From Candidatus Scybalocola faecipullorum (lineage in GTDB: Bacteria; Bacillota; Clostridia; Lachnospirales; Lachnospiraceae): a DNA stretch of 64,000 bases. This document shows, piece after piece, positions 17,479-20,828 of this stretch. Each line of letters begins with the position of its first letter. Positions within the stretch are counted from its first letter, which is position 1. Below the pieces are notes generated by a model, which was not told the DNA's origin, searched no databases, and saw only the letters and a program-made list of their open reading frames with translations. The position numbers and the translations under genes were made by a program. The stretch spans positions 1-64,000 of the forward strand of contig DVJY01000054.1 of assembly GCA_018716485.1 (NCBI GenBank), written 5' to 3'.

Positions 17479-17526
17479 AAAATTCTCCTGAATTCCGGGT
17501 CAAACGGATTTTCAGGAGAATTTTTT
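17479..17526. terminator. Bidirectional intrinsic terminator between convergent genes
   Basis: A 14-bp perfect stem (17479-17492 with 17511-17524) has T-runs on both strands and an additional internal TCCG/CGGA pair. It can serve both the lipoprotein gene and the converging DUF1461 gene, whose stop codon it touches. Confidence 0.92.
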
Positions 17527-18157
17527 ATTTTTGTTTTCGTTTCAGGATGGTATAGAGAACACCGCATATTATACTGCCCAGAATAATCAGCCCTAAAATC
17601 ATGATGGCAGAGTGCATGAAAAATGTATCCGGAAGTACGTTAATAATAGCATCTTCCTGAGGGTCGAAAATCCAGTAATCATTGGAAAAGAAAATATGGT
17701 GAAAGGTTACAAAAGCCTGTTCCCAGTTGATAGAGATTAAAACAGCCAGCACCGCGGGGATTGCGATGGTAAAAATAGAGGTCAGTTTCAGAAAGAGCCA
17801 GTCTTTTTTGCGGATAGCCGCGATTAAAAAAAGGATGCTTAGTATCAATGTGATAATGCCCATGATCTGAATGCCGACAAATATGTTTTTTACTTCCTCA
17901 AAGTGGATCCGGCCGTGTTCGGACATGGCAAAATCCGGGAAATACAAAGTATCGTGATTAAACATGGAGTTGTAGTCGATCAGGATGTCATAGTTTTCTT
18001 TGATCGTATCTGCGTCGACGCCGGAAGTTTCGGCGATATGTAAATAATCGATATCAAAGTAATATAATTGGCGAAAATTTAATGTTATCGTTACAGCTGC
18101 GGCAATAATGAAGAGCATAAGTGAAAGGGCTGCGGCCGTATTTCTGACATATCTCAT
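17525..18157 (-). CDS. DUF1461 / TIGR01906 family integral membrane protein
   Basis: 210-residue membrane protein with one N-terminal helix (about 8-28), an extracytoplasmic domain (about 30-100) containing the family-like stretches TIKENYDILIDYN and LYFPDFAMSEHGRIHF, and three or more C-terminal helices (about 92-145 and 180-203). It ends in a basic tail. The family is common in Firmicutes, and its biochemical role is not established. AGGAGG lies ten bases upstream of the ATG on the minus strand. It is transcribed alone and converges with the upstream lipoprotein gene. Confidence 0.85.
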   Translation of the reverse strand: MRYVRNTAAALSLMLFIIAAAVTITLNFRQLYYFDIDYLHIAETSGVDADTIKENYDILIDYNSMFNHDTLYFPDFAMSEHGRIHFEEVKNIFVGIQIMGIITLILSILFLIAAIRKKDWLFLKLTSIFTIAIPAVLAVLISINWEQAFVTFHHIFFSNDYWIFDPQEDAIINVLPDTFFMHSAIMILGLIILGSIICGVLYTILKRKQK

Positions 18158-18235: not shown

Positions 18236-18264
18236 TGGACTTTTGGCAAAGAATGTGGTATACT
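18236..18264 (+). promoter_or_regulatory. Sigma-A type promoter of the queuine salvage operon
   Basis: TGGACT (18236-18241), a 17-base spacer, then TATACT (18259-18264). Transcription would begin near 18271 and run through a structured leader of about 230 bases before queK. Confidence 0.75.
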
Positions 18265-18288
18265 GACACGGTTTAAAATTCATAAAAT

Positions 18289-18307
18289 CAGAGGCATTAA
18301 GCCTCTG
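18289..18307 (+). promoter_or_regulatory. Leader hairpin upstream of the preQ1-like aptamer
   Basis: CAGAGGC (18289-18295) pairs perfectly with GCCTCTG (18301-18307) over loop ATTAA. It is probably a 5' structural element of the leader RNA. Confidence 0.6.
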
Positions 18308-18309
18308 GA

Positions 18310-18343
18310 CTTGTTCGCAAACTTCCAAGGATAAAAAACTAAG
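18310..18343 (+). promoter_or_regulatory. Candidate preQ1-I riboswitch aptamer
   Basis: The arrangement matches the class I preQ1 aptamer: a short P1 stem (CTTG 18310-18313 with CAAG 18326-18329), a 12-base loop that starts TTC and ends C, then an A-rich tail ATAAAAAACTAAG (18331-18343). From memory, the tail is the same as that of the Bacillus subtilis queC-operon aptamer, whose loop is also 12 bases and begins UUC. P1 here is only four pairs, one fewer than in B. subtilis. The downstream genes fit queuosine metabolism. A covariance-model search would settle it. Confidence 0.7.
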
Positions 18344-18376
18344 AATCTTTAAAATCCATAGGTGATTTAGGATGGG

Positions 18377-18400
18377 AAGCTGCCGACGCAGCTTTTTTTT
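18377..18400 (+). terminator. Intrinsic terminator, expression platform of the leader
   Basis: AAGCTGC-CGAC-GCAGCTT (18377-18394) followed by a run of eight T (18393-18400). It sits about 34 bases after the aptamer tail and before the first gene, as expected for ligand-controlled premature termination. Confidence 0.88.
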
Positions 18401-18480
18401 AATCGTGCTGCCGCGCTTGGCGCGCAACGGCGCCGCCCGGAGCGGAGTGAAGACCATCGGGCGCTTTCCCTATCCGATCA
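18401..18480. other. GC-rich segment between the leader terminator and queK
   Basis: Unlike the AT-rich leader, this stretch is strongly GC-rich and can fold into two hairpins: CGCGC-TTG-GCGCG (18412-18424), and CGCCCG (18434-18439) with CGGGCG (18458-18463). I see no open frame or tRNA in it. It could be a dispersed repeat or a second regulatory structure. Confidence 0.4.
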
Positions 18481-18507
18481 GCTTATGGAGAGAAAGGAGA
18501 TAGGAGA

Positions 18508-19584
18508 ATGGATTCTAAAAGAGAAGTTGTTATTGATTGTGATCCGGGTATTGACGACGCCCTTGCTCTCATGCTGGCGCTTGGCAGTAAGGATATCCGT
18601 GTCGTCGGTATTACCGTTGTCTGCGGCAATGTGGGCGCAGCGCTGGGAACGGTCAATGTATGCCGTATTTTGGAACTGATGGGACGGACAGATATTCCGG
18701 TGATTATGGGCGCGGCAAAGCCTTTAAACAAACCGCTGGTTACGGCGCAGGATACCCATGGCATGGATGGGCTTGGCGAGGCGGGCTATGGCTGTATGGA
18801 TGAGACGCTGCTTAAGCGCGGCGGCTGGAAGTCTTACTGCAGTCAAGTGTCTGAGGTCGTTTTCTGCGAAGATGAAGCGGATAATCCGGCGGCGCATTGG
18901 CTGGTGCAGAAATTTGCGTCAACGCCAGGACTTTCTTTGATCGCCCTCGGGCCGATGACCAATATTGCGTCGGCGATGCAGATGGATCTGGAAGCGTTCA
19001 AAAACATGGGACATTTTGTCAGTATGGGCGGCAGCTATAAAAGCCACGGCAATTGTTCGCCAGTGGCAGAATTTAATTACTGGGCGGATCCTGATGCAGC
19101 GGCATGGGTTTATGCCAACAGCCCTGTAAAGATTCATATGGTCGGTCTTGATGTGACGCGCAGAATTGTACTGACACCGGATATATGCAGCCTGATCGGG
19201 CGGTTTGATGATCCGAAGGCGGAATTTATTTTGAATATTACAAAGTTTTATACGGATTTTCACTGGCATCAGGAAAAAATTATCGGCTGTGTGATCAATG
19301 ATCCTCTGGCAGTTGCGTATATGATCGGCCTGTGTCGGCAGACGGCGGAGGAGCCGACGTTATGCAGCGGATTTGAAAGTTATGTGGCTGTGCAGACCGA
19401 AGGGCTTGGCGTTGGCCAGACAATCGTGGATGGGTATCGTTTTTGGAACCGTCCGGCCAATGCGGTGGTTTTGACGGACACAGATCCGAAGGTATTTATG
19501 TCATTGTTTTTGAAAACGATTTTCCCGTCTTACAGCCATTGGATTGATATCGGTATGAAGGAGGTTTATCATCATGAGACATAA
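18508..19584 (+). CDS. queK: Nucleoside hydrolase, probable queuosine hydrolase QueK
   Basis: Inosine/uridine-preferring nucleoside hydrolase fold. The calcium-binding signature VIDCDPGIDDALALML occurs at about residues 9-24, followed by LIALGPMTNIASAM and a late NDPLAVAY motif with the conserved Asp. Generic members salvage purine or pyrimidine nucleosides. Here the gene is the first of three behind a preQ1-like riboswitch, with an ECF S-component and a QueL-like protein. That is the arrangement described for bacterial queuine salvage, where QueK splits queuosine into queuine and ribose. The specific substrate is therefore inferred from context. At 358 residues it is somewhat longer than typical IunH (about 310). 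AAGGAG is eight bases upstream. It overlaps the next gene by 11 bases. Confidence 0.88.
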   Translation: MDSKREVVIDCDPGIDDALALMLALGSKDIRVVGITVVCGNVGAALGTVNVCRILELMGRTDIPVIMGAAKPLNKPLVTAQDTHGMDGLGEAGYGCMDETLLKRGGWKSYCSQVSEVVFCEDEADNPAAHWLVQKFASTPGLSLIALGPMTNIASAMQMDLEAFKNMGHFVSMGGSYKSHGNCSPVAEFNYWADPDAAAWVYANSPVKIHMVGLDVTRRIVLTPDICSLIGRFDDPKAEFILNITKFYTDFHWHQEKIIGCVINDPLAVAYMIGLCRQTAEEPTLCSGFESYVAVQTEGLGVGQTIVDGYRFWNRPANAVVLTDTDPKVFMSLFLKTIFPSYSHWIDIGMKEVYHHET

Positions 19585-20146
19585 TCAGAGCCTCCTTCTG
19601 AAAGAATGTATGACAGCCATGGGTATAGCAGTTAATATTGCAGGGGCATTTATTGCGGCCAATCTGCATCTGCCGGTTTATATGGATTCAATCGGCACAA
19701 TTATGAATGCGTCGCTTTTGGGTCCGGGCTGGGCGATGATTACCGGAGTGCTGGGAAGTCTGGCAAGCGGCGTATTGTTTGATGTGTATTCTTTATATTA
19801 TGCGCCGGTACAGCTGATTACGGGCTGTCTTGCAGGCCTGCTTTTTAGAGGCCCGTGGATGAAAGGACGCAGAATCGCGGTCGGGACATTTTTATTTTCA
19901 CTGCCTTTGTCGCTGGCAAGCGCAGCCATTACGGCTTTTGTTTTCGGCGGCATTACATCTTCAGGCTCGTCTTTTCTTGTTCAGATTATGACTAAGCTGG
20001 GGATGAATCTGACGCTGAGCTGTTTTCTCGTTCAGGTGATCACAGATTATGCGGATAAACTTATGGCTGTATTCATTGCTACGGCTGTGGCAGCGGCAAT
20101 GACAGGAGAGATGAAGCGTAAGCTTCGGGGAGAGATTCATGGATAG
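19574..20146 (+). CDS. queT: ECF transporter S component, probable queuine/queuosine precursor transporter (QueT/QrtT)
   Basis: 190-residue, six-helix membrane protein of the substrate-binding S-component type, with the characteristic early MDSIGTIMNASLLGPGWAMITGVLGSL region and repeated small-residue helices. S-components capture a vitamin or base and depend on shared EcfA/A'/T energising subunits, which are not in this window. Ligand specificity comes from context: it lies between queK and queL, overlapping both (11 and 8 bases), so all three are translationally coupled. The function is probably uptake of queuosine or queuine. A different base would be the alternative. Confidence 0.85.
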   Translation: MRHNQSLLLKECMTAMGIAVNIAGAFIAANLHLPVYMDSIGTIMNASLLGPGWAMITGVLGSLASGVLFDVYSLYYAPVQLITGCLAGLLFRGPWMKGRRIAVGTFLFSLPLSLASAAITAFVFGGITSSGSSFLVQIMTKLGMNLTLSCFLVQVITDYADKLMAVFIATAVAAAMTGEMKRKLRGEIHG

Positions 20147-20828
20147 ATATAGTAAAATTACAAATAAAAATGTGAGGGAAATCGTACTGCTTAAAGCCTT
20201 TCCGTGTGCGTGGGGCAAATGTGCATTCTGTGACTATATTGATGATAATTCAAAAGATGAGCAGGCGATGGTGCGGCTTAATTCGGAAGTGCTTAAAAAT
20301 GTCACCGGAGAATTCGGTGTGCTTGAAGTCATTGACTCGGCAAGCTGCTTTGAATTGCCAAAGGCGACACTTGAAGAAATACGAAATATTATCCGGGAAA
20401 AGCATATTTCAAAGCTTTTTTTTGAGAGTCATTGGATTTACCGAAAAAAACTTCAGCAGATGCGAGATTATATGGGGATTCCTGTTGTCTATAAAATCGG
20501 TATTGAAACATTTGACAATGATTTCAGGGAAAATGTTTTGAATAAACATGCTGATTTTAAAACGCCGGAGGAAGTGGCTGCCTATTTTGATTCCCCGTGC
20601 CTGATGGTCGGAATACAGGGGCAGACAAAGGAAATGATCGACAGGGATATTGAAATTTTAAAGACTTATTTTAAACTGGGAACAATTAATATTTATACCA
20701 ACAATACGACGCCGATCCGTCGGGATGACGAACTTGTGGCATGGTTTGCGCAAAAATATAAGTATTTGGATGATGATCCGTCGGTGGAAGTGCTTTGGCA
20801 GAATACGGATTTTGGTGTGGGTGATTGA
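20139..20828 (+). CDS. queL: Radical-SAM-like protein, probable queuine lyase QueL
   Basis: 229-residue protein with an N-terminal cysteine cluster C23, C28, C31 (CAWGKCAFC, spacing CX4CX2C), followed by a partial TIM-barrel-like pattern (VLEVIDSASCFELP, FFESHWIYR, VVYKIGIETFD, NIYTNNTTPI). The classic radical SAM spacing is CX3CX2C, so the cluster is slightly atypical. In experimentally described salvage pathways QueL cleaves queuine to release preQ1, which then enters Q-tRNA synthesis. Linkage to queK, an ECF S-component and a preQ1-like leader supports this assignment. It starts by overlapping queT by eight bases. No terminator is evident before the thrC promoter. Confidence 0.8.
   Translation: MDRYSKITNKNVREIVLLKAFPCAWGKCAFCDYIDDNSKDEQAMVRLNSEVLKNVTGEFGVLEVIDSASCFELPKATLEEIRNIIREKHISKLFFESHWIYRKKLQQMRDYMGIPVVYKIGIETFDNDFRENVLNKHADFKTPEEVAAYFDSPCLMVGIQGQTKEMIDRDIEILKTYFKLGTINIYTNNTTPIRRDDELVAWFAQKYKYLDDDPSVEVLWQNTDFGVGD

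Follow-up and report, generated by a model that had tools for sequence, protein, structure and literature searches.

A preQ1-I riboswitch has been described to precede the queK-qrtT-queL genes (CD1682-CD1684) in C. difficile (PMC11477304), the salvage pathway being that of Yuan et al. 2019 PNAS, as cited there, and queK and queL are controlled by preQ1 in many bacteria (PMC12519234). The region analysed here belongs to a 64,000-nt stretch of contig DVJY01000054.1 of Candidatus Scybalocola faecipullorum (Lachnospiraceae), which as a whole is referred to as the window, and it carries, at positions 18508-20828, what is very probably an operon for queuosine/queuine salvage, controlled by its end product preQ1. 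Because the cited works state preQ1 control of such genes, the operon is a known system in kind, the trio under a preQ1-I riboswitch having been described earlier in C. difficile. The initial annotation had presented the control of these three genes by aptamer plus terminator as the point to be checked; the aptamer stands, and the arrangement is known in kind. The locus is nonetheless a clear added example of gut Clostridia that would scavenge queuosine and regulate this scavenging by its end product.

The window shares with C. difficile the gene content and order, a preQ1-I aptamer in the leader and an apparent dependence on salvage, with protein identities of 49% for QueK, 55% for QrtT and 69% for QueL. 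In contrast, the genes overlap in the window, by 11 nt (queK/qrtT) and 8 nt (qrtT/queL) according to its ORF list, an accessory hairpin (P0) that is present here is found little or not at all in C. difficile leaders, and the terminator-like hairpin behind the aptamer has no counterpart among the C. difficile leaders surveyed. The small points that may be new lie in P0 and in the expression platform. The features of the locus are collected in the table.

Table. Features of the leader and operon, in positions of the window
Feature	Position	Strand	Basis or remarks
Probable promoter TGGACT - 17 nt - TATACT, TG ahead of the -10	18236-18264	+	consensus scan, 9/12
Conserved 5' leader motif TCATAAAATC	18280-18289	+	TTTATAHAATC / UUYAUAHAAUC in relatives; directly 5' of P0
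P0 accessory hairpin UCAGAGGC-AUUAA-GCCUCUGG	18288-18308	+	covariation; adjoins aptamer helix P1
preQ1-I aptamer (predicted)	18304-18348	+	RF00522, 36.1 bits, E 7.1e-6
Aptamer P1, CUUG / CAAG	18310-18313 / 18326-18329	+	RF00522 match
Aptamer L1 UUCGCAAACUUC	18314-18325	+	RF00522 match
Aptamer tail AUAAAAAACUAAG	18331-18343	+	identical to consensus
L1/P1 strand of putative antiterminator	18313-18326	+	partner 18375-18387
Intrinsic terminator-like hairpin AAGCUGC-CGAC-GCAGCUU + U run	18377-18400	+	sequence; -10.7 kcal/mol
34-nt stretch resembling Clostridiales-1 RNA (RF01699) copies at their 3' end and in the flank that follows it	18391-18424	+	
Shine-Dalgarno AAAGGAG of queK	18493-18499	+	sequence; AAAGGAGAT(T/A)GGAGAATG context common to relatives
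queK (predicted queuosine nucleoside hydrolase)	18508-19584	+	Pfam IU_nuc_hydro and similarity to C. difficile QueK
qrtT (predicted ECF S-component, queuosine precursors)	19574-20146	+	similarity to C. difficile QrtT and sub-cut-off ECF_S_CD3073
queL (predicted radical-SAM queuine lyase, C23-x4-C28-x2-C31)	20139-20828	+	full-length match to 6P78

Genes of the operon and their genome context

The three overlapping ORFs expected behind the leader are present, and the genes and their orthology can be seen directly. The small radical-SAM-like protein, which the initial annotation had taken for QueL, aligned over 229 of 229 residues to the solved structure PDB 6P78 ('Queuine lyase', E 2.3e-82), sharing with it the CX4CX2C cluster motif and the C-terminal TDFGVGD and departing from it by sequence divergence only; it is a QueL orthologue and a predicted queuine lyase. 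A search for queL in phages gave no copy. The hydrolase belongs to the Pfam family IU_nuc_hydro (E 7.5e-82), has the motif DCDPGIDD and aligns to C. difficile QueK with 346 bits. In the PDB its best matches are to generic nucleoside hydrolases and reach about 143 bits, a score obtained with a different program. Its fold, its orthology to the C. difficile protein and the adjacency of queL identify it as a predicted QueK, in agreement with the first assignment. Residues ca. 97-126 of the protein (18796-18885 in the window) represent about 30 residues that are additional with respect to C. difficile QueK.

The S-component had initially been named QueT, an assignment that has to be corrected. The protein rendered no Pfam hit, PF06177 (QueT) included, and both PF06177 and QPTR (PF02592) were absent from the genome by profile search. 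It reached 80.8 bits with ECF_S_CD3073, whose cut-off is 180, and since C. difficile QrtT behaves alike on that profile (87.1 bits) and is the 55% identical protein mentioned above, the transporter is, as predicted from its sequence, an S-component of the QrtT type. It could be argued that the hydrolase and the S-component serve ordinary nucleosides or a vitamin and that queL is a chance neighbour, given that the best curated models are RihA/RihC for the hydrolase and CD3073 for the S-component, all of them below cut-off, and that the latter protein faintly resembles S-components for folate among the PDB entries. The QueK and QrtT proteins of C. difficile, however, give the same profile, and the gene order and tight arrangement, preceded by the aptamer, recur in dozens of genomes, so that we consider such an explanation very improbable. 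None of the outcomes that the initial annotation had named as speaking against its reading occurred: the third protein matches QueL, the hydrolase and S-component resemble those of C. difficile, and the leader has a preQ1-I hit.

The genome context, also observed directly, fits this reading. By profile search, the host genome (96% complete, 74 contigs) encodes Tgt, QueA and QueH, as salvage had led one to expect, as well as ECF T-components (PF02361, EcfT family). The best matches to queC and QueF scored 34 bits (cut-off 150) and 25 bits (cut-off 87), respectively, and are probably MnmA-like and FolE-like proteins. The synthesis of preQ1 is impossible without queC and queF. Since both were absent above cut-off, the queuosine of this organism would have to come from salvage, and the host is, judged from its gene content, a predicted queuosine salvager. 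Among the related genomes, G081 (locus L122), G116 (L123), G069 and G131 had queL, tgt and queA and no QueH match, and QueG may take the place of QueH in them.

By analogy with the relatives and with the literature, from which the enzyme activities and the repression by preQ1 are deduced, QrtT would dock on a shared ECF module and import queuosine or queuine, QueK would split queuosine into queuine and ribose, and QueL would release preQ1 from queuine by radical-SAM chemistry. Tgt would then put preQ1 into tRNA, where QueA and QueH would rebuild queuosine. Accumulated preQ1 would fold the class I (type I) aptamer and thereby engage L1 together with the A-rich tail. The 5' arm of the terminator would thus lose L1 as a pairing partner, and the terminator hairpin would form and stop the transcription of the trio.

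The aptamer and the hairpin that precedes it

The preQ1-I-like aptamer noticed initially is confirmed as a clear match to RF00522, although one below threshold. The match spans the complete model, is visible in the leader without further interpretation and is the sole one in the 2.67-Mb genome, and it was obtained on the leader alone at a relaxed threshold; its 36.1 bits fall short of the gathering score of 39, so that it fails the strict cut-off taken by itself, and a scan of the whole window against Rfam at the gathering threshold rendered no match. P1, L1, the A-rich tail AUAAAAAACUAAG and the UC ahead of the 3' strand of P1 are as in the class I type I model, one visible departure being the outermost P1 pair, A18309-G18330, which is a mismatch. 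The UC, together with a UU behind the 5' strand of P1, is the signature of class I type I (PMC11625349), and the leader can be assigned on its sequence to a predicted preQ1-I riboswitch of that type. Two preQ1 molecules would be expected to bind to each aptamer of class I type I (PMC8752633). Unlike the model, in addition to scoring just below gathering, the window has a covarying P0 and a conserved 5' motif outside the modelled region, and possibly an antiterminator based on L1.

Named genomes yielded, in one scan, 80 loci whose queL is 59-79% identical. Four C. difficile strains are among them, and these have the trio in the order seen in the window. An aptamer exceeding the gathering score was found in the leader of 34 queL loci (15/17 and 19/20) out of 37, a set that is not random, most of its members having been picked for keeping queK or a leader. 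As for the three misses, the leader of L032 is truncated where its contig stops; L068 and L082 do have the motif and were detected with a covariance model (R1, see below). The Peptoniphilus loci have queL without queK and no motif was seen in them. Locus L050 was considered as a case of queL with a leader motif and was discarded, because it had no RF00522 hit and the motif is a chance match. A Lit-like gene seems, by eye, to lie ahead of this queL-only locus, and a membrane protein of the Lit family (lipoprotein intramolecular transacylase / TIGR01906) is encoded by the divergent neighbour of the operon in the window (17525-18157, minus strand).

A strand of consensus UUYAUAHAAUC lies ahead of P0 in many leaders; its distance from a TATACT-like box is 17-19 nt in most of the relatives bearing the motif and 22 nt in the window. 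P0 itself is directly apparent. In 64 distinct leaders, its eight pairs were all changed on both sides (8/8) and 87% of the cells were paired. For the whole structure on the alignment, the covariation score was 0.40 versus 0.03-0.08 for slid versions, in an alignment that was fitted to the structure and thus favours it, with P0 anchored by the adjoining invariant aptamer. Hairpins upstream of the aptamer in 57 non-redundant leaders had a mean score of 5.4, versus 3.6 after shuffling, and were strong in 44% versus 8%. R1, built from 23 of these 57 leaders, rendered one match per locus in 68 of 68 loci, all chosen as having an aptamer. In the fold of the window leader P0 is the most stable early element, and it is missing or weak in most leaders of the Peptostreptococcaceae, C. 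difficile included.

Neither the conserved 5' strand nor P0 is part of the RF00522 model, and this module, of which a limited literature search found no description, may be new. We tentatively propose, with limited confidence, that in clostridial salvage operons the preQ1-I riboswitch has a 5' module so far undescribed (UUYAUAHAAUC plus P0 stacked on P1) that would aid the folding or switching of the aptamer, and that in this genome the platform would have been rebuilt, with L1 and not the tail acting as the antiterminator strand. The 57 leaders show that one operon has been joined to several expression platforms, with P0 accompanying many of the aptamers, and they provide a small, testable case of riboswitch platform turnover.

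Expression platform

The terminator reported initially in the leader corresponds to a terminator-like hairpin followed by a T run, which can be read from the sequence. A simple terminator scan of the + strand did not list it, probably because a G-U extension of the stem consumes the T run. In simulated folding of the growing transcript, P0 and then P1 form; with transcript ends at 18381-18390, L1 and the 3' side of P1 are paired with GGAAGCUGCCGA, a part of the terminator yet to form, and from an end at 18393 the terminator is the minimum-energy element. The duplex of L1 with the terminator arm has -12.0 kcal/mol and is equalled by 1% of arm shuffles, complementarity to L1 being as strong in 154 of 400 random 160-nt regions and hence not significant in that comparison. 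The antiterminator based on L1 is thus a putative one, deduced from folding.

In five terminator-bearing relatives, the tail CUAAGG pairs with an arm CCUUAG or CCUUGG (-10.6 to -11.6 kcal/mol, p <=0.004), and pairing of L1 with the arm was not significant against shuffles in any of them. The tail of the window aptamer, in turn, had no significant match in its own terminator (p 0.19). Because the relatives pair through the tail and their L1 is unpaired, the antiterminator strand in the window appears to be another one, as far as can be judged from the folding. Pairing of the tail CTAAGAATC with GATTTAG (18364-18370) was also considered as an antiterminator and was rejected, since it lies outside the stem of the terminator and the pairing between tail and arm was not significant.

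The sequence at 18391-18424 is found in seven other places of the genome at 89-94% identity. Three of the five copies scanned lie at loci that match RF01699 with 108-115 bits, and several copies correspond to that RNA at its 3' end, with the flank that follows. The sequence that surrounds and follows the T run of the terminator may therefore derive from a Clostridiales-1 RNA element. Among the copies, L129-L135, some sit just upstream of genes.

On the basis of the folding, ligand-dependent termination is plausible in this leader, and we lean slightly towards control by transcription termination. It can also be the case that the same operon and aptamer are controlled at translation, by sequestration of the Shine-Dalgarno sequence as in the nearest Lachnospiraceae, the terminator-like hairpin being incidental and in part the flank of a Clostridiales-1 RNA, a possibility that deserves attention even if we regard it as the less probable one. 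The closest aptamers (L036, L040, L033, L034 and L118) have a CCAAG tail, no terminator and a Shine-Dalgarno sequence a short distance from the tail, and in many close relatives there is no terminator and queK starts soon after the aptamer. The repetition of 18391-18424 elsewhere in the genome and the weakness of the complementarity between L1 and the terminator when set against random regions are on the same side. The tail of the window, however, reads CTAAG, as in the terminator-bearing relatives, and not CCAAG, the hairpin with its tract of eight T is suitably placed between aptamer and gene, and the pairing of L1 with the arm is better than that of 99% of the arm shuffles, which is not so in the five relatives. 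Termination is, by a small margin, the reading that we favour.

Leaders of the Peptostreptococcaceae present another arrangement. In C. difficile (L067, ca. 2155-2302) and in L082, L083, L087 and L088, an L1 of sequence GAGAACT is, by eye, complementary to AGTTCTC, which directly precedes a CTCCT able to pair with the Shine-Dalgarno sequence. Their sequences suggest translational control through switching of L1 in this family. In L088 both sides are changed, to GAGAACC and GGTTCTC.
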